DNA from: Chitinophagales bacterium
GTDB lineage: Bacteria; Bacteroidota; Bacteroidia; Chitinophagales; UBA2359
NCBI GenBank assembly: GCA_020628375.1
Contig: JAHDFD010000004.1
Location: 62,001 to 126,000, forward strand
Reading direction: 5' to 3'
DNA length: 64,000 nt
A program made the position numbers and the translations under genes. The notes under the pieces are model-generated. The model was not told the DNA's origin. It searched no databases and saw only the letters and a list, made by a program, of their open reading frames with translations. This document shows, piece after piece, positions 8,220-63,968 of this stretch; position 1 is the stretch's first letter; the number at the start of each line of letters is the position of its first letter.

Positions 8220-9269
8220 ATGAAATCTACACAAACACCGATATGGCTTTTGTCACTTCTTACTATATTACCACTCACTTTAAGTAGTTGTTTCACAAGT
8301 AAAAAAATCCCTTCTTTTCCTGATAACACAGATGCATTAATAGAAAACACTGTCAGAAAAGGGGTAACACCCGAATGGCATCTTGGAAAATCAGATACCG
8401 TATGTACCGATGAATTGTGTATTTACTTTGAGAGTATTGGAGATATAGAAGACCCAACTATTTTACTTATTATGGGCTATGGGACTTCAGGTTTGGCATG
8501 GTCAACAAATTTTATAGAACCATTAGTTGACGCTTCATTTCATGTCGTCCGGTTCGATAATAGAGATGTAGGAAAAACTCAATGGCAGCAAGGTAAAGAA
8601 CCCCAAAATGGGCAGTTCTATTATTTATCTGACATGGCAAAAGATGCTTGTCAGATTTTAGATAAACTGGGAAAAGAACAAGTTCATATTGTAGGTATTT
8701 CTATGGGCGGAATGATTGCTCAGGAACTCGCTATTAATTACCCCAAAAGAGTAAAAACGTTAACTTGTCTATCTTCCACAGCCCATTATTTTGATCCTGA
8801 TTTAGTTTCAATCTCTGGAAAAGTAATCGCAGAGAATGCTAAAACTATTTTGAAGTACGGTCTTGATCCGAAGTCAATTGAAAAGCAAGTGAAAAAAAGA
8901 ATCAATCAAGTTTCTTTCTTAAGAAATGATGAATTCATAGATGAAGATATGGTTATTTTTACAACTCAAAGGCTTCTGTTCAAACAACAAAATAATTACA
9001 ACAATCACCCCAAAATGAATCAGCGACACAGCAAAGCCATTCGTAAATCAGGTTCAAGATTAGAGCAATTAGGCAAGCTTGAAATGCCTACGCTCTTAAT
9101 TCATGGAACAAAAGATGTTTTAATTTTTCATCAACACACCGAAAAGTATGCAAAACTAATTGCCAATAAAAAAGAGGTTTATATTGAAGGCATGGGACAC
9201 ATACCAACGGTTGAAGAAGAAAAGAGAATTTGTAATGAACTTTTAGACTTTATTGAAGAAGAAAAGTAA
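8220..9269 (+). CDS. Alpha/beta-hydrolase lipoprotein
   Basis: A 349-residue protein with a type II signal peptide: a hydrophobic segment ending in LTLSSC, with lipidated Cys at residue 24. The alpha/beta-hydrolase fold follows. The nucleophile elbow is GISMGG with S161; the acid is probably D in HGTKDVLIF and the base His in GMGHIP near the C terminus. It probably acts at the outer or inner membrane on a small ester or acyl substrate that cannot be named. ATG 8220 was chosen over an in-frame TTG at 8214, because only two residues differ and the ATG gives a normal signal peptide. It appears to be a single-gene unit. Confidence 0.85.
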   Translation: MKSTQTPIWLLSLLTILPLTLSSCFTSKKIPSFPDNTDALIENTVRKGVTPEWHLGKSDTVCTDELCIYFESIGDIEDPTILLIMGYGTSGLAWSTNFIEPLVDASFHVVRFDNRDVGKTQWQQGKEPQNGQFYYLSDMAKDACQILDKLGKEQVHIVGISMGGMIAQELAINYPKRVKTLTCLSSTAHYFDPDLVSISGKVIAENAKTILKYGLDPKSIEKQVKKRINQVSFLRNDEFIDEDMVIFTTQRLLFKQQNNYNNHPKMNQRHSKAIRKSGSRLEQLGKLEMPTLLIHGTKDVLIFHQHTEKYAKLIANKKEVYIEGMGHIPTVEEEKRICNELLDFIEEEK

Positions 9270-9272
9270 ATG

Positions 9273-9314
9273 ACACGATAATTTGTACGTTTTAAATTTT
9301 TAAAATTGTATAAT
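9273..9314 (+). repeat. Dispersed 42-44-bp intergenic element, copy 1
   Basis: Starts ACACGATAATTTGTACGT, continues through a T/A-rich stretch and ends AAAATTGTATAAT. A closely matching copy lies at 41742-41785. It sits between the hydrolase stop and the next gene. The two copies differ by a few substitutions and small indels. Confidence 0.6.
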
Positions 9315-9330
9315 ATAGACTTCTTTCACT

Positions 9331-9897
9331 ATGAAAAAACTATTGGTCTTTTTACTGTTTCTGATAATAGCTCCCATACTCGGAGGTATTTATGGTATAA
9401 TTCACGACCAGATCAGCTTCACCATTTCCAAAGAATATTATACGAAGTTAAAATTCGATCAATTCGGTTTAGCACATTGGGGCATGGGCTATAATGCAGG
9501 AACTGCTGATGAACCAGAAGTACTACTGAACGATCCAAGATTCGGCGCTGCAATAGTTGGTTTACTAGCTACCTGGTGGATGGGTTTACTTATCGGACTA
9601 CTTTTAGGTTTGATTGGCTTTTTCCATAAAGATTGGAAGACTATGTTTTCAACCACTTTAAAAGCTGCTTCATTGAATATAGCAATTGCACTACTTTTTG
9701 GTTTACTTGGCATTGGTGTAGGTTTTTTCCTCGATCCTGCTCAGTTTCATTTACCAGCACATTTAGTATTGCCAAAACGCTTCATTATCGTTGGAACAAT
9801 GCACAACTTCAGTTACCTTGGAGGAATTGTTGGTTTGATAATAGCCTGTTTTTATTCTATAAGAAAAATTAAAGAAACGAGTAATAATGATCGATAA
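9331..9897 (+). CDS. Hypothetical membrane protein
   Basis: A 188-residue protein that I do not recognise. About four hydrophobic helices are visible: residues 3-24, 75-100 (IVGLLATWWMGLLIGLLLGLIG), 115-132 and 155-172. Between the first two lies a soluble, probably periplasmic loop with FDQFGLAHWGMGY. The C terminus is basic and cytoplasmic-looking (IRKIKETSNNDR). The next gene overlaps its end by 11 nt, so the two are probably translated together. No catalytic motif is seen. Confidence 0.7.
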   Translation: MKKLLVFLLFLIIAPILGGIYGIIHDQISFTISKEYYTKLKFDQFGLAHWGMGYNAGTADEPEVLLNDPRFGAAIVGLLATWWMGLLIGLLLGLIGFFHKDWKTMFSTTLKAASLNIAIALLFGLLGIGVGFFLDPAQFHLPAHLVLPKRFIIVGTMHNFSYLGGIVGLIIACFYSIRKIKETSNNDR

Positions 9898-10210
9898 AGA
9901 AGAACAGTTGTCTTATTACGAAAAATGGGAAAGTTACAAAGGGAAGCAGCTCAAAATAAGTGCTTACCTTTCTACAAATCGCGAAAACTTCGATCGGCAT
10001 TTTACTAGCTTTCTGAAAATGGGATTTAAGCTGAATATTTTTCTGGTTCGCTTTAGTGGACATCGGGTTTGCTTTATGGGCGATGAACACACTTTTGAAA
10101 TTGGTGGTGATCACATTATTCAAATTACAGATAATATGAGCCATGAATATGAAGTGATAGAAAAATACAATGACACTGTTTTTCGTAAAACGATTTTACA
10201 ATTTAAATAG
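9887..10210 (+). CDS. Hypothetical small protein
   Basis: A 107-residue soluble protein of unknown family, rich in aromatic and charged residues (EEQLSYYEKWESYKGK at the start). It overlaps the preceding membrane protein gene by 11 nt, which supports it being a real, co-translated gene. There is no signal peptide, membrane segment or known motif. It ends 32 bp before the convergent AT-rich ATPase gene. Confidence 0.6.
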   Translation: MIDKEEQLSYYEKWESYKGKQLKISAYLSTNRENFDRHFTSFLKMGFKLNIFLVRFSGHRVCFMGDEHTFEIGGDHIIQITDNMSHEYEVIEKYNDTVFRKTILQFK

Positions 10211-10241
10211 TTAACTAACACATATATCAAAAAAGTTACAA

Positions 10242-12698
10242 TTAATGTAATTTATCAGTGAAGTTAGTGAATCCGTCATTTTCCCAATCATCTAGTTTTT
10301 GTTTTAAATTTTTAAATGATATTCTAGCGCTGATAAGAGTTTTATGTAGTTCACTTTGATTTTTCAACATATTGCTTAATAATATGAAATGATTTGTTAA
10401 TCTAGCTAATTCCTGTAAAATCCTTTCATTTACTATTAGCTTATAATCAAATATATCATTTGCATTCATTTCATAAATCTCAATACCTGATTTAGAAAGG
10501 CTGAAAAAACCATTTTTAAGAAAGTACTCGAAATTTTCTAGGTAAAAGAGTCTAAACTGATCAACATGAGTTATTGCCCTTGAAAGTAAATCTTGAAAGT
10601 ATAGTTTTTTATCAAGTACTACAGGTTCCTCAATAAATAAAGTTAAATTTTTGTATGGTGAAATTTGGTCGATATAGTAATTTACTGTTGTTTCTGAACA
10701 ATTAATAATTGTAGAAATTGTATTGTTTATATATATTTCGAAATCAAAAATTGTATTTCGTTTGTTCGTAAAATCTATTATTGCACCAACCTTCTCTAAT
10801 AATGGTTCATCTTGAATTCTTTTAGGGTCTTGATTTAAACCAAAATATTCAAAATGTGAGCAAAGATATTTTACATAGTAAATAGCATTTTGATTATATA
10901 AAAAGTATATATTTTCAAGATGTTCTCTGTAACTTTCTTTTTTTGTTTCTACGTATTTTTGGTAAAATTGAAGCTCTCTGTTGAAGTTAACTCGTCTATT
11001 TGAGAAAATCCCTGAAGACTCTTCAGTTTTAGTAGTGTACTCACAGTCCCAAACAGATATAAAGAAATGCCCCCAAGAGTCAACATTTACAGGAAATAAT
11101 TCATTTAATAACTCGCACACTTCTGAAGAAGTATAAAGTTCATTATCTTCAGAGATAAATGATTTTCTAAAAAATTCAAATATGGTGAACAATGATACAG
11201 AATTCTTATCAATAGAATCAGTAATACTTTCACTTGAGCTATTTAACTCCAAGTTAGCAGATGAAATTGACTTTGCAATTATAAAGTTAATTAACAATCT
11301 TCGTAAACTACATTTATCATCTTCGTGCATGGAAGTAAATAGTAATTTTAATAATTTTTTTGAAGTTCCACTTATTTTACGTGTTGATCTGACAGATAGT
11401 GAATTATCAACCAAAGGTTTAATAAGGTAAAAGAAATAAGCTCCTCTAAAAAGATAATCATATCGACGTTTATATAGTTTTTTATAGATGCTCTCAACAG
11501 CCCTACTATCAATTTTTATGTATGCAGGTTTGAGAATGACATTTTTATTATTATTATATATTGAAAAGAATTTATTTAAAGTTAATTCAGTTGTTTTACT
11601 GTCTTTATCAATTTCAATAAGTTTATCTAAAATAAAATAAGTACTACATTTGTGAAGCCCTAATTTTTCACACACCTCCTTATAAAAAGCAAGCCTTTTA
11701 TCAATTATATCTGTTACAAATTTATTAGAGTTTATAGAGATAGAATAAGTTGTTTCAAAGTTAAACTTCAGTTTTTCTTTAATAGCTTCTGTACCGCCTT
11801 GTGTTTGTGATGCTCTTAAAATATTTAAATAATTAGCCGTTCGATATGTATAAATAAATTTAAGATTATCAAGAATTAAATCATTTACTATATCTTTAAT
11901 TATAGAATAAGAATTCTTTAGAACTGTAAATTTTGAAGCAAGCATTGTGATATGATTTGTAGCCGTGTCAACTTCATATCTTGCCAAAAGTGTATCAATG
12001 TTATCAAATATAAAGATTGTCTTATTTTGATTTTGGCTATTTGTAGTTAGTATTATGTATAATAATAAGAGTTGAGTAGCTCCTTTGACATTACTGTGAT
12101 CTTTATAGTTTTCTAAAAATTCTATTGTAATGTTAGAATCCAATTCATTATACCCGTCATTATAAAATTTTAAAATATCTTCACTAATTTCTGAAAAGAG
12201 ATCTAGTACTTCCGAATGATATTGATTTTTCTTCTCAAAATTATTGTGTTCTTCAATATTTTGAAAATAATTGATTATTACAAATATATCTTTGTGATGA
12301 AATAGCTTATTTTTTATTCCACTAATTAAAAAATCAATTGTTGATTTTTTAAAAGTAAAAGTATTGTTATTAGCATATTTGAATGCATAATGTTCAAAGT
12401 CAATTATCTTCAAGTCCCAATCAATATACTCTTCAGCTAAAATTTTGACATTTGTCGATTTACCATTTTTAGAATATCCATGCAGTATAAGAAAATTTTG
12501 AGTTTGAAGCGTATCAATAACTTCCTTCCTAATTTTTTTCAGCTCATTGTTATCACAAAACATATATTCTTTAAAATCATCAATATCAAATACCTTATCT
12601 AATTTATCAATTGAATAATTTAAAATATCGAAAAATAGTAATTCTGAATTTCTATGATTTGCGAAATGAGATTGAATTTTTTCTATGAGTATATCCAT
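10242..12698 (-). CDS. Large orphan P-loop ATPase, possible defence protein
   Basis: An 818-residue protein of no family I can name. A Walker A motif, GYSKNGKST, lies near residue 75 and a Walker B-like IFIFDNID near residue 230, giving a STAND/AAA-like ATPase domain in the first ~350 residues. The remaining ~450 residues are helical; one stretch (LYTSSEVCELLNELF, near residue 550) resembles a winged-helix segment. No membrane helix or nuclease motif is seen. The gene is markedly more AT-rich than its neighbours, is dominated by Asn, Lys, Ile and Phe, and stands alone between unrelated genes, which suggests horizontal acquisition. ATG 12698 was preferred over an in-frame TTG at 12725. An anti-phage role is a guess from architecture and context. 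Confidence 0.75.
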   Translation of the reverse strand: MDILIEKIQSHFANHRNSELLFFDILNYSIDKLDKVFDIDDFKEYMFCDNNELKKIRKEVIDTLQTQNFLILHGYSKNGKSTNVKILAEEYIDWDLKIIDFEHYAFKYANNNTFTFKKSTIDFLISGIKNKLFHHKDIFVIINYFQNIEEHNNFEKKNQYHSEVLDLFSEISEDILKFYNDGYNELDSNITIEFLENYKDHSNVKGATQLLLLYIILTTNSQNQNKTIFIFDNIDTLLARYEVDTATNHITMLASKFTVLKNSYSIIKDIVNDLILDNLKFIYTYRTANYLNILRASQTQGGTEAIKEKLKFNFETTYSISINSNKFVTDIIDKRLAFYKEVCEKLGLHKCSTYFILDKLIEIDKDSKTTELTLNKFFSIYNNNKNVILKPAYIKIDSRAVESIYKKLYKRRYDYLFRGAYFFYLIKPLVDNSLSVRSTRKISGTSKKLLKLLFTSMHEDDKCSLRRLLINFIIAKSISSANLELNSSSESITDSIDKNSVSLFTIFEFFRKSFISEDNELYTSSEVCELLNELFPVNVDSWGHFFISVWDCEYTTKTEESSGIFSNRRVNFNRELQFYQKYVETKKESYREHLENIYFLYNQNAIYYVKYLCSHFEYFGLNQDPKRIQDEPLLEKVGAIIDFTNKRNTIFDFEIYINNTISTIINCSETTVNYYIDQISPYKNLTLFIEEPVVLDKKLYFQDLLSRAITHVDQFRLFYLENFEYFLKNGFFSLSKSGIEIYEMNANDIFDYKLIVNERILQELARLTNHFILLSNMLKNQSELHKTLISARISFKNLKQKLDDWENDGFTNFTDKLH

Positions 12699-52513: not shown

Positions 52514-53176
52514 TTACTCTCCAATTTTAATGATCTTACTGCCACATAATGCTAACCACAAAAGGCAAGCCATTAACAATCCAAAGCCCATAAAATCGAT
52601 CAATAAATGTAGTCTATTCACAATGGTTATAGCAAAATCGCCTTCAAATCCTGCCTGAAAACGTTCATAATAAGTAGCATATTTGGTTCCTAAAGAAAAC
52701 CAGAACTTTGTTGCGACAAGTAAGGAGAGAACAATTATTCCAATGATGGAAGCAATTAGTTTTCTTTTTATTGAAACGGGTGTAACAATGAGTAATGCCA
52801 AATAAAAGGAAAGGATTATCCCCAGTAAATTCCAGCTACTATCGGCATATTGTATAGGGGTTATCTGCGCCTGACTTAAGCCTTGTTTTTTAGCTTTTTC
52901 AATGGCAATTTGCTTTTGTTTTTCACTTTTAAGAGTAACTAGCACATCGAAGCCTCTGTACTCTTCCAAACGCGGTCCTTTTCGTTCTTCATCGACAATT
53001 TGACGAAACTTTACTTCACCACCATTATAATAAGTGCTATTAAAAGTATTTCCTATACCGCACACATAAGCAGACAAGGCATGCTTAAGTGGTGTAAATT
53101 GAAAAAGAGCAGTAAAAGCAAGATATACCACAAAGAAAGCACCTGCTCTTAGTAGAAGCGTATTATTGCTATTCAT
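52514..53176 (-). CDS. Exosortase-associated membrane protein (probable XrtH partner)
   Basis: A 220-residue protein with four predicted membrane helices: about 9-28, 115-135, 139-160 and 188-212. A ~75-residue periplasmic segment after TM1 contains YNGGEVKFRQIVDEERKGPR. Its start overlaps the end of the exosortase gene by 8 nt, so the two are made together. Partner membrane proteins are commonly found directly after XrtH-type exosortases; that, not a catalytic motif, is the basis of the call. It may help recognise or position the sorted substrate. Confidence 0.72.
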   Translation of the reverse strand: MNSNNTLLLRAGAFFVVYLAFTALFQFTPLKHALSAYVCGIGNTFNSTYYNGGEVKFRQIVDEERKGPRLEEYRGFDVLVTLKSEKQKQIAIEKAKKQGLSQAQITPIQYADSSWNLLGIILSFYLALLIVTPVSIKRKLIASIIGIIVLSLLVATKFWFSLGTKYATYYERFQAGFEGDFAITIVNRLHLLIDFMGFGLLMACLLWLALCGSKIIKIGE

Positions 53177-53774
53177 GGGTTAATTTTTGTTTGTTTGTCC
53201 AGCCAATCCAGTAAAAGAGTGCTAATAAGGTCAATCCGATAAACAATACCTGCCAAACGCTGACGTGCATAAACTCGAATAAGTCGGGGGCATGCGCTTT
53301 AAATAAATACAAACTTATTATTCTGAATAAATTCAGTAAGACAAGAAATAAAGTTCCGAACAACAAACCTTTCATTTTATTATTCCAACTTGTTGGGAAG
53401 ATAAGCACAGCTGTATAAAAAATAGCAAGCCCTTCAATTCCATCACAACCATTCTGAATATTGATAGAAAAATTGCGCTCACTTAAAGAATTGCCAATTG
53501 CTTTTACAGGATAACCAAAAACTTTAAGGATCAAACCGCTAGCTTGGGCATATAAAGTTGATACGGGTGCAACTATATAATCCTGAAATATTCCACTTGG
53601 CCAGATCAAATAAAAGACCAATATGATCAATAAAAACTGTATTAATAAACGATTGGTTTGATTAGTCCAAATTGTAGAAAATGAAAAACCTTTTTTTTGC
53701 TGTTTTTGTCTTTCAGCTTCTCGTGCTTTTTGTTTTTCAAGTTTCCTTTGTTCTTTTTTGTTCTTCTTCGCCAC
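53169..53774 (-). CDS. Exosortase family protein, XrtH-like
   Basis: A 201-residue membrane cysteine protease-transpeptidase. A charged Lys/Glu/Gln-rich N terminus (1-30) precedes about five to six helices. The catalytic triad is C110 in NGCDGIEG, R151 in LNLFRI and H170 in FEFMHVSVWQ, all in the expected exosortase/archaeosortase positions. NGC-x-G-x-E fits XrtH, the type tied to IPTLxxWG-CTERM sorting signals. Two proteins with VPTMGEWG motifs are encoded nearby, which supports the pairing. The start codon is GTG at 53774. It overlaps the partner membrane protein gene by 8 nt. Confidence 0.87.
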   Translation of the reverse strand: MAKKNKKEQRKLEKQKAREAERQKQQKKGFSFSTIWTNQTNRLLIQFLLIILVFYLIWPSGIFQDYIVAPVSTLYAQASGLILKVFGYPVKAIGNSLSERNFSINIQNGCDGIEGLAIFYTAVLIFPTSWNNKMKGLLFGTLFLVLLNLFRIISLYLFKAHAPDLFEFMHVSVWQVLFIGLTLLALFYWIGWTNKQKLTHE

Positions 53775-53894
53775 AGGTTCAATTTTGGGTGTAAAATAGT
53801 AAATTCAACAGAATAGTCCAAATCTATTTTTCACCATAAATTATTCGACTTTAAAGTTTTAAGATAGCCTTTTTAATTCACTAAGCAACAAAAA

Positions 53895-53924
53895 ATCCCT
53901 CACACAAAAACATGTATGAGGGAT
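53895..53924 (-). terminator. Terminator of the first CTERM protein gene
   Basis: An 8-bp stem (ATCCCTCA 53895-53902 with TGAGGGAT 53917-53924) and 14-nt loop. On the minus strand TTTTTGTTGC follows. It lies 53 bp past the stop codon. Confidence 0.7.
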
Positions 53925-53976
53925 ATAAGGCTAATCAATGAGAGTAGATTGGCTACTATTTTCGTTGCATATATAT

Positions 53977-55635
53977 TTACTTGTTATTAGCAAGCACCAA
54001 TAGGTGTACTAAGTAAGTAAAGATCGGTGCTGCAATAGCACATCCAATTACATCAACAGTAGTAAAGAAACCGTAGAATGTCAAAGCATATACTGAAGTA
54101 AAAGCTAATAAGATTACCGTTAGCATAGCTGCTTGTATAAATATTGCTTTGTTAAACGGATAAGCGTTTACATTTCTCCAATCGAAACGAACTGAGCTTC
54201 CATTAGCTAACTGTGTTTGACCTGCTACTGAATATAACATAGTAAAGTTCAAGGTTAATAAGGCTAAGATAATTAATCCCCATTCGCCCATAGTTGGCAC
54301 ATCGTCTCCTACTGGAGGCTCAACATCACAAGGATCACATGAACCACCGCAATCAACACCCGTTTCATCGCCGTTCATCATGCCGTCATCACAAGTTGGT
54401 GTTGGCTCGGTATCACAAGGATCACATGAACCACCACAATCAACGCCCGTTTCATCGCCATTCATCATACCATCATCACAAGTTGGATCTATTGGTGAAA
54501 TTGGTGTTCCTGCGCATGAACAGTCATCAAGAATAATATCATTTTCTGTATTTGCATCCAAATCATCACAAGGTTCTCCAACTGTCACACCTGCATCGGC
54601 ACATGGATCAGAATTATCACCACAAGATGGAACTGAACCATCGTCTGGTGCAGGGTTTGAAGCACTCTGGAAAGGAGAAGCATCACCAATTGTTAAGGTA
54701 GGAATACTTTCTGTATCTGGACCTGTTAAGCTACAGTTTGGAGAGCTGAACTCTATTACCCATTCGACGCCTAATACTCTGAATACTAATTCACCATCAA
54801 CATCAGTAGCCGGATCTCCTGAAATGTAAGATAATCTATTACTTCCCCAAGTTACTTCCCAGGTTATATCTGGATTTACGCCTAACCATGAAACCGTTAA
54901 TAATAATTCTTCTTCACCCTGATCGTTAATTATAGAGCAGTAAGAAAAATTACAAAGCTCTATTCCATCACAAGCAAAATGGGCATCCTGACAAGTAGAG
55001 CTTACTGCTGCAATAACTTCGGCAGGTGCTACAGTAGTATTATCAAGTGAATCATCTCCATCATTTTCGTCAGCTATTTCCAAACCAGAAACCAACCAAT
55101 TCGAAGCATCTTCAAAAATACCATCATTATTTGAACTACTTCCGCCATTCGGACAACGACCATCTTTACTTTTTGCCCATCCATCGTTAAACTCCCAATT
55201 TGCTCCACTTCCTGAATCGTTTGAGCCAAACTGATCCTGAACGTTTCCTAAGCAAGAAAGAACGAAATTATCTCTACCGTCATTACTAACACTAGAGTCG
55301 TAGAAATCGGCTGCAAAACCATAATAAGCAACAAAATCGGCTGCATCTTCTTCATCTTGTCCTATCCAAAAACAATCGCCAGCCGAACCAGACAGGGCAG
55401 GAAAAGAAACTTCCGGACCTACTAATTCGTCGGTAGCAACTACCTGACTAACAATATTCAATGAATAAATACTCATGTCTGCAACATCACCTGTTAAACA
55501 AACCTGAATTGCATCAGCATCTACGTCTGGTGCATCTACAATTGTAGCAATGATCATTTTGCCACAATCATTACATTGTGCTCCCAAAACAAAAGGGATA
55601 CAGGAAAGCATAAAAGCATAAAAAATTCTCTTCAT
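53977..55635 (-). CDS. Secreted PTMGEWG-CTERM protein with extended membrane tail, copy 1
   Basis: A 552-residue exported protein with a signal peptide (MKRIFYAFMLSCIPFVLGAQ). The N-terminal part resembles lamin-tail/endonuclease-type surface domains (VCLTGDVADMSIYSLNI; FGSNDSGSGANWEFNDGWAK). A DLDANTENDIILDDCSCAG segment and two 29-residue Cys-rich repeats (CDDGMMNGDETGVDCGGSC) follow. The sorting motif VPTMGEWG is at about 446-453, then helix LIILALLTLNFTML. Unlike normal CTERMs it does not end soon after: ~85 more residues add two helices (about 499-525 and 528-549). ATG 55635 replaces a longer frame lacking a leading signal peptide. It is a probable XrtH substrate. Confidence 0.85.
   Translation of the reverse strand: MKRIFYAFMLSCIPFVLGAQCNDCGKMIIATIVDAPDVDADAIQVCLTGDVADMSIYSLNIVSQVVATDELVGPEVSFPALSGSAGDCFWIGQDEEDAADFVAYYGFAADFYDSSVSNDGRDNFVLSCLGNVQDQFGSNDSGSGANWEFNDGWAKSKDGRCPNGGSSSNNDGIFEDASNWLVSGLEIADENDGDDSLDNTTVAPAEVIAAVSSTCQDAHFACDGIELCNFSYCSIINDQGEEELLLTVSWLGVNPDITWEVTWGSNRLSYISGDPATDVDGELVFRVLGVEWVIEFSSPNCSLTGPDTESIPTLTIGDASPFQSASNPAPDDGSVPSCGDNSDPCADAGVTVGEPCDDLDANTENDIILDDCSCAGTPISPIDPTCDDGMMNGDETGVDCGGSCDPCDTEPTPTCDDGMMNGDETGVDCGGSCDPCDVEPPVGDDVPTMGEWGLIILALLTLNFTMLYSVAGQTQLANGSSVRFDWRNVNAYPFNKAIFIQAAMLTVILLAFTSVYALTFYGFFTTVDVIGCAIAAPIFTYLVHLLVLANNK
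54326..54486. repeat. Two 87-bp Cys-rich repeats in CTERM gene 1
   Basis: 74-bp units at 54326-54399 and 54413-54486 with an 87-bp period, encoding CDDGMMNGDETGVDCGGSC. The same pair is present in the second CTERM gene at 59267-59427. Confidence 0.88.
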
Positions 55636-55893
55636 AGCAAATAAAAGTTTATAAGATTTATATAAATTAAGATTGAATTTCAATAAATTTGAAACCACAC
55701 TCGACACTTTCCCCTTTGCGTGAGTGTGATTCCAATGAAATAACTGATACGAAGAAAGACTGCTTTTTGCTAATAAAATAGCCAAATCAGCCCTTAAACT
55801 TAAACTCTCAACACAAAAAATAAATACATAAAAAACTAAAAAACAATCACTTACAACAAAAGAAGCTTAACATTTTAGCTTAATATCAGTTAC

Positions 55894-57378
55894 ATGAAAA
55901 GTAAAGACACGCTATTTACCCTAGTTCATTCTATGTCAAAGAGTGAAAAACGACATTTCAAACTACGGTTTTCCGGAACCAAGAAAAGTAGTCATATAAA
56001 ATTATTCGATGCCCTTTCAGCTCAGGAAAAATATGATGAAGGCCAATTGAAAAGAAAATTTAAAGATGAAAAGTTTATAAAGCACTTACCAGTCATAAAA
56101 AACCAACTTCAGGAAAAAATACTAACAAGCTTAAATGAACAGCATAGCGATAAAGACTTAGGCTTGTTCATTCACAATAAGTTGAATCATGCGAGTATAT
56201 TGTATCAAAGAGGCTTATACGAGCAGGCTCGTAAACAAGTTAGTAAGATCAAGGAACTCATTATTGAACATGAGTTTTATGAATTCTCTTATTTACTATT
56301 TCGTAAGCAAGCTATTTTCTGGCAGCAAGAACAATTTATCAATACAAGTTTAGAAGAGATAAAAGCCTTTGAACTTTTTTCTTCTGAAGGCTTACAAAGT
56401 ACCATGCAGGAAATAGAAATGCTTTCTGCTATGCAACGTTTTAATAAGTTAGCTAAAACCATTGGTTTTGTAAAAAGTGATTCAGATAGTTCAGCTTATC
56501 ATCAAATATTGAATGAATCTATTTTTCAATCTGAAGAAATACTTGACTCAAGTAAAACCAGGTATAATTATCATTTTGTACTAAGTGCTTTTTATTTACT
56601 GCATAAAAATGAAAAAAAGTGTATTGACCATAGTTTGAAAGCTTTAGAGATCACTAAAGAAAAAGCCCAAAAGAATGAACGTTATATTAATGCCTATATC
56701 GGCTCATTAGCAAATACAATTTCCTATTTAATTACTTTCAGACAATATCGTTACTATAAATTCTTTAAAGAACAGCTTGAAAAATTAAAAGCGATGATCA
56801 ATAATGCCAACTTATTTGGTGTTAAACAACGCTTTGAAACGCTGAAATTAGCTGAATTGCAATATGTACTTTTGTCTGATGAAAGAAATGCAACGATTAA
56901 AACCAGCTCTTTAATTCTTGAATTGGAAACTATTGATAATACCTCAAAGAGTTTAAGCACAACTAGTGTTTTGTACTATGTTGCTTACGGCAAATTCAAA
57001 TTAAAAAAATACAGGGCTTGCCTTGAATCGCTGGATTTGTTAAATCAAAAAACCATTGGAAAAACTAATTCTCTTTATACTTCAGCTATATTACTAAGGA
57101 TTATTTGTCATTTATCAATGCGGGATTTTGAGTACATGGAAGCGCTTTTACGTAATTCAAAAAGAGCATTAGAAAAAAATAACACTTATGGAATTCATGA
57201 AAAACAATTTTTCCGATTTGTTAAAAAACTGGTACGATTTCAGAATAATAAAGACAAATTGGAACAGGCTTATCAAGACTATTTAGAATATTTAGCTAGT
57301 TTAGCAGTTTTGGAATGGAATGCAAATATCTATTTCAATTTTGAAGCCTGGCTCAGATCATTACAAAAGAACAGTTAG
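55894..57378 (+). CDS. Paralogous alpha-helical protein A, unknown family
   Basis: A 494-residue soluble protein, apparently all helical. The N-terminal signature is TLVHSMSKSEKRHFK (9-23), then IKLFDALSAQEKYDEGQLKRKF and KHLPVIKNQLQEKIL. The middle has TPR-like helical pairs (ILYQRGLYEQARKQ). The C terminus has YMEALLRNSKRALEKN and ends in YFNFEAWLRSLQ. No signal peptide, so it is probably cytoplasmic. Three homologues lie in this window (57382, 60516, 62472). I do not know the function; a scaffold or sensor role in an alpha-solenoid is an inference. The next paralogue starts 3 bp after its stop. Confidence 0.8.
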   Translation: MKSKDTLFTLVHSMSKSEKRHFKLRFSGTKKSSHIKLFDALSAQEKYDEGQLKRKFKDEKFIKHLPVIKNQLQEKILTSLNEQHSDKDLGLFIHNKLNHASILYQRGLYEQARKQVSKIKELIIEHEFYEFSYLLFRKQAIFWQQEQFINTSLEEIKAFELFSSEGLQSTMQEIEMLSAMQRFNKLAKTIGFVKSDSDSSAYHQILNESIFQSEEILDSSKTRYNYHFVLSAFYLLHKNEKKCIDHSLKALEITKEKAQKNERYINAYIGSLANTISYLITFRQYRYYKFFKEQLEKLKAMINNANLFGVKQRFETLKLAELQYVLLSDERNATIKTSSLILELETIDNTSKSLSTTSVLYYVAYGKFKLKKYRACLESLDLLNQKTIGKTNSLYTSAILLRIICHLSMRDFEYMEALLRNSKRALEKNNTYGIHEKQFFRFVKKLVRFQNNKDKLEQAYQDYLEYLASLAVLEWNANIYFNFEAWLRSLQKNS

Positions 57379-57381
57379 ATT

Positions 57382-58851
57382 ATGAAAAGCAATGATGCAT
57401 TACATGTACTCATCCATTCGATGAGTAAAAGTGAAAAAAGGCATTTTAAGATTTATCAGGGTAGTGGTAAGAAAAGTAATTATATAAAATTATTCGATGC
57501 TATTGATAAACAGGAAGAATACAATGAAGATCAACTGAAAGTAAAATTCAAAAATGAAAAATTCGTCAAACATATCCATGTAATAAAAAATCAACTAGGC
57601 GAAAAAATTCTGACTTCACTCCGCGAATTCCATCGAGAAAAGAACCCCAATCAACTTATATTGGATAAAATCGCTGATGCTGATATACTTTATCAGCGCG
57701 GTTTGTATGATATGTCGTTCAAATATCTCGAAAAAGCCCGTGAGCTTATAGAAGAACACGAAAGTTACGGTTTGTTCATTAATTATTATTCGGCTAAAGT
57801 ATTACTATGGCAAAAAGAAGGCATGCTTAAGACTTCTGAAGAAGAGTTGAATCATATCTCTGAAGAGGCAAGTGATTTTCTTGATTATCAGCAAAGTCAT
57901 ATCGATATGCTGAAAGTTAGTCAACTGCTGAATAAAAAAGCAAAAACGGTGGGCTACCCACGTAATGAGAAAGAGCGAAAAGTATTTGAAGATATTATGT
58001 CAGCAACGATCATGACCGACATCTCGAAAGTAAAAACAACAAAAGCAAAGTTTAACTTTTATACTAATTATTCCTTCTTCTATTTACTAACGGGACAGAA
58101 GGAGCTATGTCTCGAAAATAATTTGAAAGCCATTGAGGCAATTGAACAGAAAGCATTAAGTAATAATAGCTTTGTACTTGATTATATCAGAGGTCTTTCT
58201 AATCTTTTGTATTTGACCATTACCTTTAAAGATTTCGATTATTATAAATCTATTAAGGAGAAACTAAAAAATGTAACGACCATAGCTTCTCACGATAGTT
58301 CTACCAAAAAGTTAGGCGATTTAAAACTGATCGAGCTGCAATATCTGACCTTAACGAATAGTGAGATCGAAACTTCCAGAATACAAGAGTTAATCAATGA
58401 ATTGGAGGAATGGATTCAGAAAACAGAAATTACACCCAATGACAAAACAACCATGACCTATTATGTGGCTGTGGCTTATTTTATGCTTAAAGAACATGAT
58501 ACTTGCTTAGATAAGCTTTATCCACTTATAGACAATCAAAAAGGTAAGATTAACCCTTTATTTTTATCTGTGTATCTGCTTGTTTTACTATGTCATTATG
58601 AATTGAAAAATTACGAGTACTTAAACTCATTACTTCGAAACACAAAACGTACACTACTCAATCAAAATTTATACGGAAGCTTTGAAACTGAAGTATTCAA
58701 TTATATCAGAAAAGGCTGTATGTATGATAAAGATCCTAAGAAAATGAAGAAATATAAGCAGGCTTTACTTAAACAGATTCAGGAAACCCCAAAAGAAGAA
58801 GCCTCTGCATTATTCTACTTCAACTACGAAAGATGGCTGAACGAAAGCTAA
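57382..58851 (+). CDS. Paralogous alpha-helical protein B, unknown family
   Basis: A 489-residue homologue of protein A, with the same opening (VLIHSMSKSEKRHFKI), IKLFDAIDKQEEYNEDQLKVKF, ILYQRGLYDMSFKYLEKARELI and an ending YFNYERWLNES. It starts 3 bp after gene A's stop, so A and B form an operon. No catalytic motif, signal peptide or membrane helix is visible. The C-terminal half contains YLNSLLRNTKRTLL, matching the RNSKRAL block of A and D. Confidence 0.8.
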   Translation: MKSNDALHVLIHSMSKSEKRHFKIYQGSGKKSNYIKLFDAIDKQEEYNEDQLKVKFKNEKFVKHIHVIKNQLGEKILTSLREFHREKNPNQLILDKIADADILYQRGLYDMSFKYLEKARELIEEHESYGLFINYYSAKVLLWQKEGMLKTSEEELNHISEEASDFLDYQQSHIDMLKVSQLLNKKAKTVGYPRNEKERKVFEDIMSATIMTDISKVKTTKAKFNFYTNYSFFYLLTGQKELCLENNLKAIEAIEQKALSNNSFVLDYIRGLSNLLYLTITFKDFDYYKSIKEKLKNVTTIASHDSSTKKLGDLKLIELQYLTLTNSEIETSRIQELINELEEWIQKTEITPNDKTTMTYYVAVAYFMLKEHDTCLDKLYPLIDNQKGKINPLFLSVYLLVLLCHYELKNYEYLNSLLRNTKRTLLNQNLYGSFETEVFNYIRKGCMYDKDPKKMKKYKQALLKQIQETPKEEASALFYFNYERWLNES

Positions 58852-58865
58852 TAACAAAAAAGCCC

Positions 58866-58882
58866 CTGTACTAAAAGTACAG
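58866..58882 (-). terminator. Weak hairpin between convergent genes
   Basis: A 7-bp stem (CTGTACT/AGTACAG) with an AAA loop. On the minus strand GGGGCTTTTTTG follows, so it probably ends the second CTERM gene, 30 bp past its stop. Confidence 0.6.
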
Positions 58883-58911
58883 ATACCAATTTTGTAAAGA
58901 GTAAGTAATAA

Positions 58912-60303
58912 TTACTGCTCTTTCTGATTCAGTAAAACAATTAAGTGAATCATATAAGTAAAGATCGGAGCCGCTATAGCGCACCCAACAACATCTACAA
59001 CAGTTAAGAAACCATAGAATGCTAAGGCATAAATTGTAGTAAATGCTAACAATACAGCCGTTAACATTGCAGCATGTACAAATATTTCTTTATTGAACGG
59101 ATAAGCATTTACATTTTTCCATTCGAAACGAACTGTACTTCCATTAGCTAATTGAGTTTGACCTGCTACTGAATATAACATAGTAAAGTTCAAGGTTAAT
59201 AAAGCAAGAATAATCAATCCCCATTCGCCCATAGTTGGTACATCATCACCAACTGGAGGCTCTACATCACAAGGATCACAAGATCCACCACAATCAATGC
59301 CTGTTTCATCGCCATTCATCATACCATCATCACAAGTTGGCGTTGGCTCAGTTTCACATGGTTCACAAGAACCTCCACAATCAACGCCTGTCTCATCACC
59401 GTTCATCATGCCATCATCACAGGTTGGATCTACCGGAGAAATTGGTGTTCCTGAACATACACAAGCAGTGTATATATCATTTTCTGTATTGTCATCTCCA
59501 TCATCACAGGTTGTTCCATCGGCAATTGCTCCTACAGAAGCATCGCTATCATCACAATCTAGATCTGCACAAACACCATCAGCATCTGCATCTCCGCCTG
59601 CATTAGCACATGGGTCAGCAACTGGCTCGCCACATGGTTCCGGAGCATTATAAACAGGCGAAATTCCACTTTCATCTGTAACAGCAATGTTGTCTAAAGA
59701 AATTTGCTCTGACCCGGCATTATTCAGCACACAAATTTGTAATTGGAAAGTTGAGCTTGCCGCAATAGAACCAGTTACAGTCGCAGGAATCAAACTTGAA
59801 GTTGACCAATCTCCGGCATCTGGCAAATCACCTACTAAAGTATGAACACCATCACTGAATTCACCTCCGGTAAGGGTTGAAGCAACACCATCGGCAATTA
59901 AGTTTATATCTACGAAATCTTCAGGCTCAAGATCTCCACTTTCAATAACATCTACTGAAATAGAAATTGTTGTAGCACCACCGAGTGTTAATATTGGCGT
60001 ATTAAAGCATAAAATTGCTTCAGCATCCTGAAATTCAAGTACACCTGAAGACTGTGTTTCAGCATTATCTCCAGAAGCTGTTAAAGTCGTAATGTCTCCT
60101 GCTGCAGATAAAAACCAACCATCGCCTGCTTGTGGACTGTATGTACCACAAGCAGTTATATCATCGGTATCGCATGGACCTGCTAATTCAGCAGCGTCGC
60201 AAGTATCGAAGTCGGTAAAATCTTCAGAAAAAATGACTGTCTGAGCATTTACATTAAAGCACATTAAAAAACATGCAAAGAAAAGTGCGGGGAAATTTTT
60301 CAT
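58912..60303 (-). CDS. Secreted PTMGEWG-CTERM protein with extended membrane tail, copy 2
   Basis: A 463-residue exported protein with a signal peptide (residues 1-20, ending VNAQ). The N-terminal domain (about 22-215) looks like a carbohydrate-binding or jelly-roll module (FSEDFTDFDTCDAAEL; STFQLQICVLNNAGSEQISL). Ca2+-type DxD repeats (GGDADADGVCADLDCDDSD) and the two 29-residue Cys-rich repeats follow. The motif VPTMGEWG (about 355-362) and the 107-residue C-terminal module are about 88 of 107 identical to those of the 53977 gene, by eye count. The N-terminal domains are unrelated, so only the sorting module is shared. It is a probable XrtH substrate. Confidence 0.85.
   Translation of the reverse strand: MKNFPALFFACFLMCFNVNAQTVIFSEDFTDFDTCDAAELAGPCDTDDITACGTYSPQAGDGWFLSAAGDITTLTASGDNAETQSSGVLEFQDAEAILCFNTPILTLGGATTISISVDVIESGDLEPEDFVDINLIADGVASTLTGGEFSDGVHTLVGDLPDAGDWSTSSLIPATVTGSIAASSTFQLQICVLNNAGSEQISLDNIAVTDESGISPVYNAPEPCGEPVADPCANAGGDADADGVCADLDCDDSDASVGAIADGTTCDDGDDNTENDIYTACVCSGTPISPVDPTCDDGMMNGDETGVDCGGSCEPCETEPTPTCDDGMMNGDETGIDCGGSCDPCDVEPPVGDDVPTMGEWGLIILALLTLNFTMLYSVAGQTQLANGSTVRFEWKNVNAYPFNKEIFVHAAMLTAVLLAFTTIYALAFYGFLTVVDVVGCAIAAPIFTYMIHLIVLLNQKEQ
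59267..59427. repeat. Two 87-bp Cys-rich repeats in CTERM gene 2
   Basis: 74-bp units at 59267-59340 and 59354-59427 with the same 87-bp period as 54326-54486. The duplication therefore predates or accompanied the copying of the whole C-terminal module. Confidence 0.88.
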
Positions 60304-60515: not shown

Positions 60516-62018
60516 ATGAGTCGGAAGCGGTTTTTATACGATTTAATCCATTCTTTGAACAATACAGAACTACGCTTTTGCAAAAAATACATTCAGGCTT
60601 TTGAAGCTAAAAGCAGTGATTTTATTTTATTATTAGAAGCCATTTTAAAACAAAAATCGTTCGATGAAAAAACGCTGAAAACAGCACTGAAAAAACACAG
60701 CTTCATTAAGCATTTTCCCGTTTATAAAAACTTACTTTTTAATTCCATTTTGAAAGCACTTCGTATCTATTATCAAGAAGAAATTGATATAGATAAGCTT
60801 TTTATTTTAGAAAAAAATTATAGAATATTAAAGAACAGAGGCTTACCAGCAATAGCCAATATCCAATTGGATAAAGCAATACATTTATCAGATGAAGTGG
60901 AAGCCTTAATTAATAAAATAAGGTTAGGACAATGGCAAAACAACAGACTCTCTAATCTTGAAATTTACAGAGATGACAAAGCCGCCAATAATAATTTTGT
61001 TGACATTCCGGCACTTTGCGATCAATTAAAATATTATTATGTATTTGAATCCTTAGCAAAAAAAATTGATAAGATCATTCTGAAAAGCAGTATGCGCAAA
61101 GCAGAAGATATTGAACAATTAAATACGCTTTTACACTCTGAACCACTAACAATCAATGTGAACCTTCTAAGTGTTAGGACTCGCGTATTTTATTATCATT
61201 CCAGGGCTTCCTGTTTTCTTGGATTAAAACAATATACCGCTTTTACCGAAGCCAATATGGCACTATACGATCTTTTCGATGAATACCCTAAAATATTGGA
61301 TACCGAACCATTTGCTAAAATTATAACTTACAGAAATCTTATCTGGGGCTTGCTTAGAACACGAGAGCAACTAGAAGATATTGATCCTTACATAGAAAAA
61401 TATAAGAAATTTATTGACAGCTTCAAAGGCAAAAAAAGAAGTGCTATTCAATATGAGCGTCGAATGCTCGATTGTACTTTTGGTTTTCAGTTAAACTTCT
61501 ATTTATATAGAAAAGAATACCGCTCAGCCTTTGAGTATGCGAAAAAATTGAATGAAGCGGTAAATAAGAAAGCTGATAAGCTCTCTCTTTATCACACCAT
61601 AAATTATAAATATGAAATAGCCTACACTTTTTGGTGTAATGGTTTACTAAAAGAAGCCCAACAAGCACTTATGGTACTACTAAATGAAGAAAATCTAAAT
61701 ATCAGGAATGATGTTTTTGCTTTTACTCATTTGTTGAATGCTTTAATAGAATATGAGCATAAGAATTTCGAGTTACTTGGTTATCAATTAACCAATCTTA
61801 AGTTAAAGCTTAAGCGCCGAGATTACTTTTATTCTTTTGAAAAAGCGATTATAGAAATGCTCTCCAAATTGGTTAAACAGCCAAATAAGAAAAATGCAAT
61901 TAAAATCTTTGAACAGTATGAAAAAATATTTTCAGATCTAAATAAATTCGATACAGAAACAGAAGCGTTTGAAAGGTTAAACATTATGTGGTGGATCAGG
62001 AAACAGTTAAAATCTTAA
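60516..62018 (+). CDS. Paralogous alpha-helical protein C, divergent member
   Basis: A 500-residue homologue of A, B and D, but the most divergent. The opening DLIHSLNNTELRFCKKYI replaces the HSMSKSEKRxFK signature, and KHFPVYKNLLFNSILKAL corresponds to the KHxxVxKxQLxEKI block. It ends with LNIMWWIRKQLKS instead of YFNFExWL. It is all helical, has no signal peptide, and its function is unknown. It is separated from B by the convergent CTERM gene 2, suggesting that the CTERM gene was inserted into, or the family expanded around, the array. Confidence 0.75.
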   Translation: MSRKRFLYDLIHSLNNTELRFCKKYIQAFEAKSSDFILLLEAILKQKSFDEKTLKTALKKHSFIKHFPVYKNLLFNSILKALRIYYQEEIDIDKLFILEKNYRILKNRGLPAIANIQLDKAIHLSDEVEALINKIRLGQWQNNRLSNLEIYRDDKAANNNFVDIPALCDQLKYYYVFESLAKKIDKIILKSSMRKAEDIEQLNTLLHSEPLTINVNLLSVRTRVFYYHSRASCFLGLKQYTAFTEANMALYDLFDEYPKILDTEPFAKIITYRNLIWGLLRTREQLEDIDPYIEKYKKFIDSFKGKKRSAIQYERRMLDCTFGFQLNFYLYRKEYRSAFEYAKKLNEAVNKKADKLSLYHTINYKYEIAYTFWCNGLLKEAQQALMVLLNEENLNIRNDVFAFTHLLNALIEYEHKNFELLGYQLTNLKLKLKRRDYFYSFEKAIIEMLSKLVKQPNKKNAIKIFEQYEKIFSDLNKFDTETEAFERLNIMWWIRKQLKS

Positions 62019-62471: not shown

Positions 62472-63968
62472 ATGGCGGATAAAGATGTGGTACATGGCTT
62501 GATTCATTCGATGTCGAAGAATGAAAAACGCTACTTCAAGATAAAACACCTGACGAATAAAAGGAGTAACTTCTCGAAGTTATTCTCAGCCTTATCTCTG
62601 CAAAAAGAATATGATGAAAAAGCCCTGAAGAAAAAATTTCGCAACGAAAATTTCCTCAAACATCTGAGTGTTACCAAGCTCCAATTACAAGAAAAAATAT
62701 TGCTCTCGCTAAGTGAATTCCATAGCGATAAGCAATTCAATATGAAGATCATTCAGAAAATGAATGATGCGACCACCCTATTTCAAAGAGGCTTTTATGA
62801 ACAGGCTCACAAATATCTGGAAAGGGCAAAAGAGCTTATCATTGAGTATGAGTCTTATGATCTGTTGATTACTTACATGCGAAAAATATGTACTTTCTGG
62901 CAACAGGAACTTTTCGCTAATATCAGTAATAATGATATTATTGAAATGGAGCAATTTGTTCTTTCAAAACTTGTAAACATTGAACATGAAGTTAAGCTTC
63001 TCTCAAGTATGCAGCGCCTTAATCGTTTATCAAAAACAAAAGGGTATGTAAATAAAGATGAAGACATAGCTGCTTATGATCTGGTTTTCAAAGATGCTGT
63101 TTTACAAGATGCAAATCAGCTGAAAACAACCAAGAATAAATTCAATTTTTATTTTATAAAAAGCCTTTATCACTACGTACTCAAAAACGAAGATGAATGT
63201 ATTCAAAATAGTTTGGATGTGTTATCGGTTATTAGTAGTAAAGCTGAAACAAACAGCTATTTTATTGGTGCATATATGCGCGCCTTGTCCAATTTGGTTA
63301 CCTATTTATTATCATTCAGAAAATTCAAGCATTACGACGCTTTCAAACTAGAAATAGAAAAAGCTAAAGGAATTATAAGTGAAGCTAACTTAACGAGTGC
63401 TGATAATTTTATTGACTTCATTAATATTGCAGAGTTGAAGTATTTATTATTAAGTGATTCTGAGGGGAATAATGCTACTGATAACGATATTGAACAATTG
63501 ATAGACCTACTGAGTAATATCGATGAAAAAACAAATACTATAAATACTCAAAGTGCGCTCTTTTACATTGCCAGTGCAAAATTCTATTTAAAACAATTCG
63601 ATGAAAGTTTGCAATTTATTGAAAAACTAACCCAAAGTAATGGATCAAATACATCTTCCTTTCACACAATTGCTACTATTTTAAAAATTATATGCCATTT
63701 TGAACTTAAGAATTACCAGTATATGGCTGCATTACTAAGGAATTCGAAAAGAGCTTTAAGTAAACGTGATCTTTACCATGAAAACGAAGTGCACTTTTTT
63801 CAGCTGATCAGAGATTTGATTCGTTATCAACTTGATTCAGATAAACGAAATGAAACTATTCAGCAATATCTAATACGTCTGAATGCACCTGAAAATTCTG
63901 ACTGGTCTGCCAGATTATATTTCAATTTTGAAAATTGGCTGAATGCTAAAATGTTGCAAAAGGTATAA
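62472..63968 (+). CDS. Paralogous alpha-helical protein D, unknown family
   Basis: A 498-residue homologue of A and B. It has GLIHSMSKNEKRYFKIK near the start, LFSALSLQKEYDEKALKKKF, LFQRGFYEQAHKYLERAKELI, YMAALLRNSKRALSKR and an ending YFNFENWLNAK. It is cytoplasmic by appearance, with no known motif. It is closer to A than to C by eye. The stop is just before the window edge, so further paralogues may continue to the right. Confidence 0.8.
   Translation: MADKDVVHGLIHSMSKNEKRYFKIKHLTNKRSNFSKLFSALSLQKEYDEKALKKKFRNENFLKHLSVTKLQLQEKILLSLSEFHSDKQFNMKIIQKMNDATTLFQRGFYEQAHKYLERAKELIIEYESYDLLITYMRKICTFWQQELFANISNNDIIEMEQFVLSKLVNIEHEVKLLSSMQRLNRLSKTKGYVNKDEDIAAYDLVFKDAVLQDANQLKTTKNKFNFYFIKSLYHYVLKNEDECIQNSLDVLSVISSKAETNSYFIGAYMRALSNLVTYLLSFRKFKHYDAFKLEIEKAKGIISEANLTSADNFIDFINIAELKYLLLSDSEGNNATDNDIEQLIDLLSNIDEKTNTINTQSALFYIASAKFYLKQFDESLQFIEKLTQSNGSNTSSFHTIATILKIICHFELKNYQYMAALLRNSKRALSKRDLYHENEVHFFQLIRDLIRYQLDSDKRNETIQQYLIRLNAPENSDWSARLYFNFENWLNAKMLQKV

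Follow-up and report, generated by a model that had tools for sequence, protein, structure and literature searches.

A probable variant XrtH-type exosortase system in a Chitinophagales bacterium, with a two-helix membrane domain fused to its candidate substrates

In the established model of exosortase sorting, the tag of a secreted protein is cut near its motif at the inner membrane, the helix is left behind, and the new C terminus is joined to an acceptor (PMC7468200). The 64,000 nucleotides of Chitinophagales DNA analysed here (contig JAHDFD010000004.1, positions 62,001 to 126,000; this whole stretch is called the window) encode an XrtH-like exosortase close to two secreted proteins bearing a PTMGEWG motif, which raises the question whether these genes constitute such a system and, if so, of which kind. 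The host genome comprises 3.30 Mb in 41 contigs and is 69% complete. A literature search found no paper on IPTL tags or Saprospirales exosortases, key subscription papers lying outside its scope.

The first-pass annotation of this DNA had described an XrtH-like exosortase with a Cys110/Arg151/His170 triad. The three residues occupy exactly these positions and are invariant in 23 relatives, and the protein scores above the cut-offs of the exosortase/archaeosortase superfamily (TIGR04178, 57.5 bits vs 23; PF09721, 49.9 bits vs 25.7). Comparison with the NCBIfam subtypes gave the best score for XrtH (TIGR04177, 81.5 bits, E 6e-23), followed by XrtM (66.1 bits), XrtX (60.0 bits) and XrtF (41.8 bits), the last three all far below their own cut-offs. 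The XrtH identity holds as to the best-scoring subtype, but not as to the curated cut-off of 86 bits. No exosortase structure was found by sequence search, and a plasmid search for an XrtH-like locus returned only two distant Methylomonas exosortases, annotated as XrtM where annotated at all. The genome had also been called T9SS-bearing, and this remark is right, since the model of the T9SS C-terminal domain (TIGR04183) matches it at least 149 times.

Table 1. Features of the exosortase locus, in window coordinates
Feature	Position	Strand	Remarks
Partner gene, 220 aa, Cys-less exosortase-related membrane protein (putative pseudo-exosortase)	52514..53176	-	8-base overlap with exosortase
XrtH-like exosortase, 201 aa, GTG start, Cys110/Arg151/His170	53169..53774	-	XrtH best NCBIfam match; PF09721; triad
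Terminator-like stem-loop between substrate 1 and exosortase, 12 pairs and T run	53895..53924	-	Consensus scan only
Substrate 1 (candidate), secreted, Cys-rich repeats and sorting tail	53977..55785 as listed	-	IPTL_CTERM 22.3 bits
Substrate 1, fused two-helix domain (YPFN...D-x2-G-x9-Y-x2-H)	53980..54168	-	Homologous to stand-alone two-helix protein
Substrate 1, recognition motif VPTMGEWG, then TM1	54277..54300	-	
Substrate 2 (candidate), secreted, same Cys-rich repeats as substrate 1 and sorting tail	58912..60303	-	IPTL_CTERM 22.6 bits
Substrate 2, fused two-helix domain	58915..59109	-	
Substrate 2, recognition motif VPTMGEWG, then TM1	59218..59241	-	

The genes of the locus are compiled in Table 1. 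The stem-loop suggests that substrate 1 and the exosortase lie on separate transcripts, the consensus scan that detected it having found 7 sites vs 4.6 expected. The listed TTG start of substrate 1 is probably too early; the ATG at 55635 is likelier and gives a signal-peptide-like N terminus (MKRIFYAFMLSCIPFVLGAQ). The two candidate substrates have in common a Cys-rich repeat (CDDGMMNGDETGVDCGGSCDPC) just ahead of the tail. Their tails are 81% identical at the DNA level, whereas the N-terminal regions appear to differ, suggesting domain shuffling that moves the tail together with the stalk. Interleaved with them on the opposite strand are four paralogous proteins of ~490-500 aa (55894-57378, 57382-58851, 60516-62018 and 62472-63968, +), of which the two tested match a BT2802-family model weakly (66-79 bits vs 550).

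Both neighbours of the exosortase had been read as carrying VPTMGEWG followed by a hydrophobic helix. Motif and helix are present in both proteins, but the motif is not C-terminal: 106 and 108 residues, with three predicted helices, extend from it to the end. Both proteins exceed the IPTL_CTERM cut-off (TIGR04174, 20.5 bits; scores in Table 1) and fall below that of PF18203 (17.1 and 18.5 bits vs 20.8). As a DNA pattern, PTMGEWG has exactly two matches in the 3.3-Mb genome, both in the window genes, and the reversed control pattern has none. A search of the genome with the tail identified 16 proteins of ~320 to 2,440 residues with a full tail, 4 with PT[MV]GEWG and 12 with PTLSEWG or PTLSQWG. 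PT[MVL]xEWG recurs in 14 secreted proteins besides those in the window. The annotation had named a better-scoring subtype, or absence of the motif from exported proteins elsewhere, as counting against it; XrtH being the best subtype and the motif recurring in 14 more proteins, neither was observed.

Alignment of 14 tails revealed conservation of P, T, WG and a P-x-N loop, as well as of D, G, Y and H within the final pair of helices. The ectodomains include M43 and M12/reprolysin-like peptidases, Cys-rich repeats (that of the two window proteins also occurs in a third tail protein) and, in two proteins, GBD_T9SS_assoc. The 16 tail proteins are probably surface proteins processed by the exosortase or exosortases, and the window enzyme adjoins two of them. 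The AlphaFold2 model of the tail was of moderate quality (pLDDT 78, pTM 0.54), and a structural search of the PDB with it gave no match.

A scan of 84,980 species genomes for the tail yielded 58 loci, mostly in Saprospirales and Chitinophagales MAGs, plus Phaeodactylibacter luteus and a Lewinella; in more than 12 loci of other Bacteroidota genomes an exosortase directly adjoins the tail protein. At three loci (L072, L078 and L089, two from Planctomycetota and one from an unplaced MAG), a gene of its own encodes the second half of the tail, as a protein of the ~70-80-residue two-helix family whose two-helix part spans 71 residues (the ORFs as listed are 98 and 149 aa long, and 71 aa in L089), and its neighbours are an ordinary IPTL-CTERM protein ending soon after one helix and an XrtH-like exosortase. 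The fused domain and the stand-alone protein are homologous (hhalign E 1.2e-23), with D, G, Y and H common to both. In two complete genomes (L179 and L180) the genes form a same-strand operon in the order substrate, two-helix protein, exosortase, partner, and in the cultured P. luteus (L063) a fused substrate/two-helix gene is followed by exosortase and partner; two other genomes with a stand-alone protein (L177 and L178) do not have its gene next to an exosortase. In the host genome, genes one and two of the split operon are fused in 16 of 16 tail proteins, and no stand-alone copy was found. Since the arrangement recurs in many independent assemblies, cultured P. luteus included, we rejected both chance and a MAG assembly artefact as its origin. 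No Pfam or NCBIfam model matches the two-helix part (D-x2-G-x9-Y-x2-H), and a plasmid search for the two-helix protein returned nothing. These comparisons reveal a putative component of exosortase sorting systems that has no name so far and is a separate gene in other phyla. The label CTERM, given to the window proteins by the first-pass annotation, accordingly does not suit them: they bear not a tripartite C-terminal tag but PTxxEWG just before the first membrane helix, and then the two-helix membrane domain in cis.

To what extent the two-helix part accompanies the enzyme was apparent from two surveys. Among 120 genomes of one class, two seed genomes included, six encode the stand-alone protein in one copy each, and an XrtH-like exosortase is present in all six vs 4 of the 114 lacking it (p 6e-8, shared descent uncorrected; p 9e-6 with the two seed genomes left out). 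Nine of 100 genomes in the host's order contain the tail (one of them only a 65-residue two-helix ORF); all nine with the fused tail have an XrtH-like exosortase vs 9 of the other 91 (p 3e-8, likewise uncorrected for shared descent). Three genomes (G006, G177 and G189) encode five XrtH-like exosortases each along with one two-helix protein each, which would fit a helper shared by several enzymes, or a need for the helper confined to one of them. Distances between exosortases and distances between their adjacent tails were correlated over 17 pairs (Mantel r 0.78, reached in 0 of 20,000 permutations, shared descent uncorrected), and the correlation persisted for the two-helix part alone (r 0.70).

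It might be argued that the locus encodes a standard XrtH/IPTL-CTERM system and that the two additional helices, being a stronger but passive anchor or a by-product of a fusion event, contribute nothing to sorting. The motif with the first helix is indeed enough for a match to IPTL_CTERM, and relatives in the order bear many plain short tags, as in G005 (16 IPTL-type matches and no two-helix protein at the threshold used) and in most tags of G008, which has many plain IPTL tags beside a single full tail and a single stand-alone protein. A passive anchor, however, explains none of the following: the co-occurrence of the stand-alone gene with the exosortase in six of six genomes of other phyla, its position directly upstream of the enzyme in two complete genomes, the retention of D, G, Y and H in fused and separate forms alike, and the co-variation of the two-helix part with the exosortase. 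We regard the passive anchor as improbable, and consider it likely that the locus represents a variant XrtH-type system whose substrates carry in cis a membrane component that is normally separate.

In a second alternative, the exosortase complex includes the two-helix domain as a subunit and the fused protein is a polyprotein, whose cleavage would free a surface protein together with one enzyme subunit per substrate. The position of the two-helix gene between substrate and exosortase in split operons, at one copy per genome, agrees with this, as does P. luteus, whose genome yielded only one tail, in a fused protein; yet the 16 copies in the host genome exceed the need for a subunit, and a recognition element would be expected to co-vary with the enzyme just as well. 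We judge the polyprotein unlikely, and retain the variant system with its component in cis.

The exosortase and the Cys-less, exosortase-related partner form a gene pair, and in most loci of the family the partner gene lies directly 3' of the exosortase. The partner has no Pfam or NCBIfam assignment. Its profile aligned with that of the exosortase family by hhalign with a score of 68.1 (E 2.3e-9, a pairwise value), exceeding what the hydrophobic pattern yields, as none of 60 column shuffles that preserve hydropathy scored above 30.7 and the reversed family scored 21.3. The partner model was also matched by two individual exosortases (E 5e-5 and 8e-5). No Cys is conserved among the partners (17 or 18 aligned), and the position of the Arg is mostly Lys. 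The AlphaFold2 model of the partner is confident (pLDDT 89.6, pTM 0.83) and has an alpha/beta segment between membrane helices 1 and 2, and a structural search of the PDB with it gave nothing significant. We read the partner as a pseudo-exosortase, that is, a relative of the exosortase without the catalytic Cys. In a Saprospiraceae MAG (L068), two short exosortases of 155-157 aa (9075-9542, -, and 10195-10668, +) on opposite strands have their own partner gene each and lie near two tail proteins.

A single XrtH-type exosortase in the genome had been named as supporting the first-pass reading, but three XrtH-like enzymes were found, that of the window (C11) and one each on contigs C8 and C35 (XrtH 81.5 bits for the window enzyme, 79.0 and 69.1 bits for the other two, all below 86), belonging to two types matched to two tail types. 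The C8 exosortase, with a 220-aa partner overlapping it by 4 bases and a PTVGEWG substrate ~2 kb away, makes a second copy of the module. The C35 exosortase is solitary; a third partner gene, bringing the count to three for three exosortases, sits on C8 at 87105-87761, and its closest similarity (29%) is to the partner at L043, a locus whose exosortase is of the C35 type. Trees of the tails and of the exosortases show the same two types, several deep forks being weak: PTLSEWG tails group with tails beside C35-type enzymes (L043, L058), and PT[MV]GEWG tails with those beside C11/C8-type enzymes (L039, L042, L047). Two genomes (MAG-49 and MAG-100) contain loci of both types, so the match between tail and enzyme does not reflect species descent only; this co-existence within single genomes is the only, and a partial, control for shared descent. 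The host appears to operate two circuits in parallel: in one, the C11 and C8 enzymes would be paired with PT[MV]GEWG tails, and in the other the C35 enzyme with PTLSEWG tails.

We propose that the substrates enter the inner membrane by Sec, where exosortase and partner would recognise the motif and helices. The two-helix domain may dock the substrate on the enzyme or shape the active complex; docking or complex assembly is the simplest role that accounts for its being encoded separately in certain phyla and as part of a fusion elsewhere. Charge and helix order would place its invariant Asp near the outer face, where the exosortase Cys is expected. The enzyme would then cut near PTxxEWG and transfer the ectodomain to an acceptor in the membrane or at the surface, and a three-helix remnant would stay in the inner membrane. 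This route would be separate from T9SS, which serves the at least 149 other proteins. Alternatively, the tail could be a permanent inner-membrane anchor and the exosortase a regulated release protease that frees the ectodomain or a signalling remnant without surface sorting. Although ~105 residues remain behind the motif and are conserved in sequence, as if active after the cut, an acceptor is attached to the new C terminus by the known exosortases and archaeosortases, as has been proposed (PMC7468200) or shown (lipid anchoring is reported for archaeosortase substrates, PMC7157517), the loci yielded no signalling partner, and the ectodomains are composed of modules typical of surface proteins (M43/M12-type peptidases, GBD_T9SS_assoc, Cys-rich repeats). 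Release without sorting is therefore highly improbable in our estimate. As an extension of the sorting route, put forward tentatively and at somewhat less than an even chance, the complex would consist of the catalytic exosortase, the Cys-less pseudo-exosortase and the two-helix D/H protein, one Bacteroidota lineage having fused the two-helix part to every full-tail substrate found in the host genome. Every cargo protein would then carry a piece of the machinery that sorts it, and a single cell would operate two matched circuits next to each other.

Several described systems resemble the locus in part. With XrtH/IPTL-CTERM (TIGR04177, TIGR04174, PF18203) it has in common the best-scoring subtype, PTxxEWG ahead of a hydrophobic helix and the kept Cys/Arg/His, but the window exosortase is under the XrtH cut-off, and the tag is not C-terminal, lacks a terminal basic cluster and has the two-helix domain fused behind it. 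Midcut-by-XrtH (NF033207) is similar by name and model layout, with an XrtH motif before the end and sequence beyond the first helix; the tails, however, align over the motif and first helix only (about positions 32-80 of 175), and membership was rejected because they score 13.4-22.2 bits (tails viewed one by one) vs a cut-off of 45 and leave the two-helix part unaligned. The exosortase H-associated membrane protein (NF041730) is XrtH-associated by name, and the partner gene may occupy the equivalent place, but the window partner has no match at E 1 and only one of 17 relatives matches, at E 0.024. Of the four XrtH-related NCBIfam models, the parts described here fail the cut-offs of XrtH, midcut-by-XrtH and the XrtH-associated membrane protein, and pass that of IPTL_CTERM only. 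The XrtF system of Flavobacterium johnsoniae (TIGR04128, Fjoh_1448/1449) likewise pairs a Bacteroidota exosortase with an adjacent associated protein in a T9SS-bearing host; both proteins are needed for surface colonisation, and their substrates are reported as unknown (PMC10936215). The window exosortase, by contrast, scores 41.8 bits vs an XrtF cut-off of 90, and candidate substrates are identified here. Readable from genomes are, moreover, a rule matching enzyme type to tag type and two uncatalogued components, the two-helix protein and the pseudo-exosortase, and the split and fused forms of one component offer a direct genetic test of what an exosortase needs besides the catalytic enzyme.

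The T9SS type A C-terminal domain (TIGR04183) is also a C-terminal surface-sorting tag in the same genome, and two tail proteins contain a GBD_T9SS_assoc module; it is nevertheless another tag for another machinery, and in the 16 tail proteins the exosortase tail takes its place at the C terminus. Tandem T9SS-tail genes of identical score and regular spacing occur at C34:67287-73639 and C41:911-5190 of the host genome (four at ~1.5 kb and three at ~2 kb), which we read as recent tandem duplication of T9SS cargo genes. At L030/L031 (contig C30:41246-63521), four consecutive large exosortase-tail proteins (~1250-2046 aa) with peptidase-like N-terminal regions and near-identical tails form a tandem family resembling a growing array.
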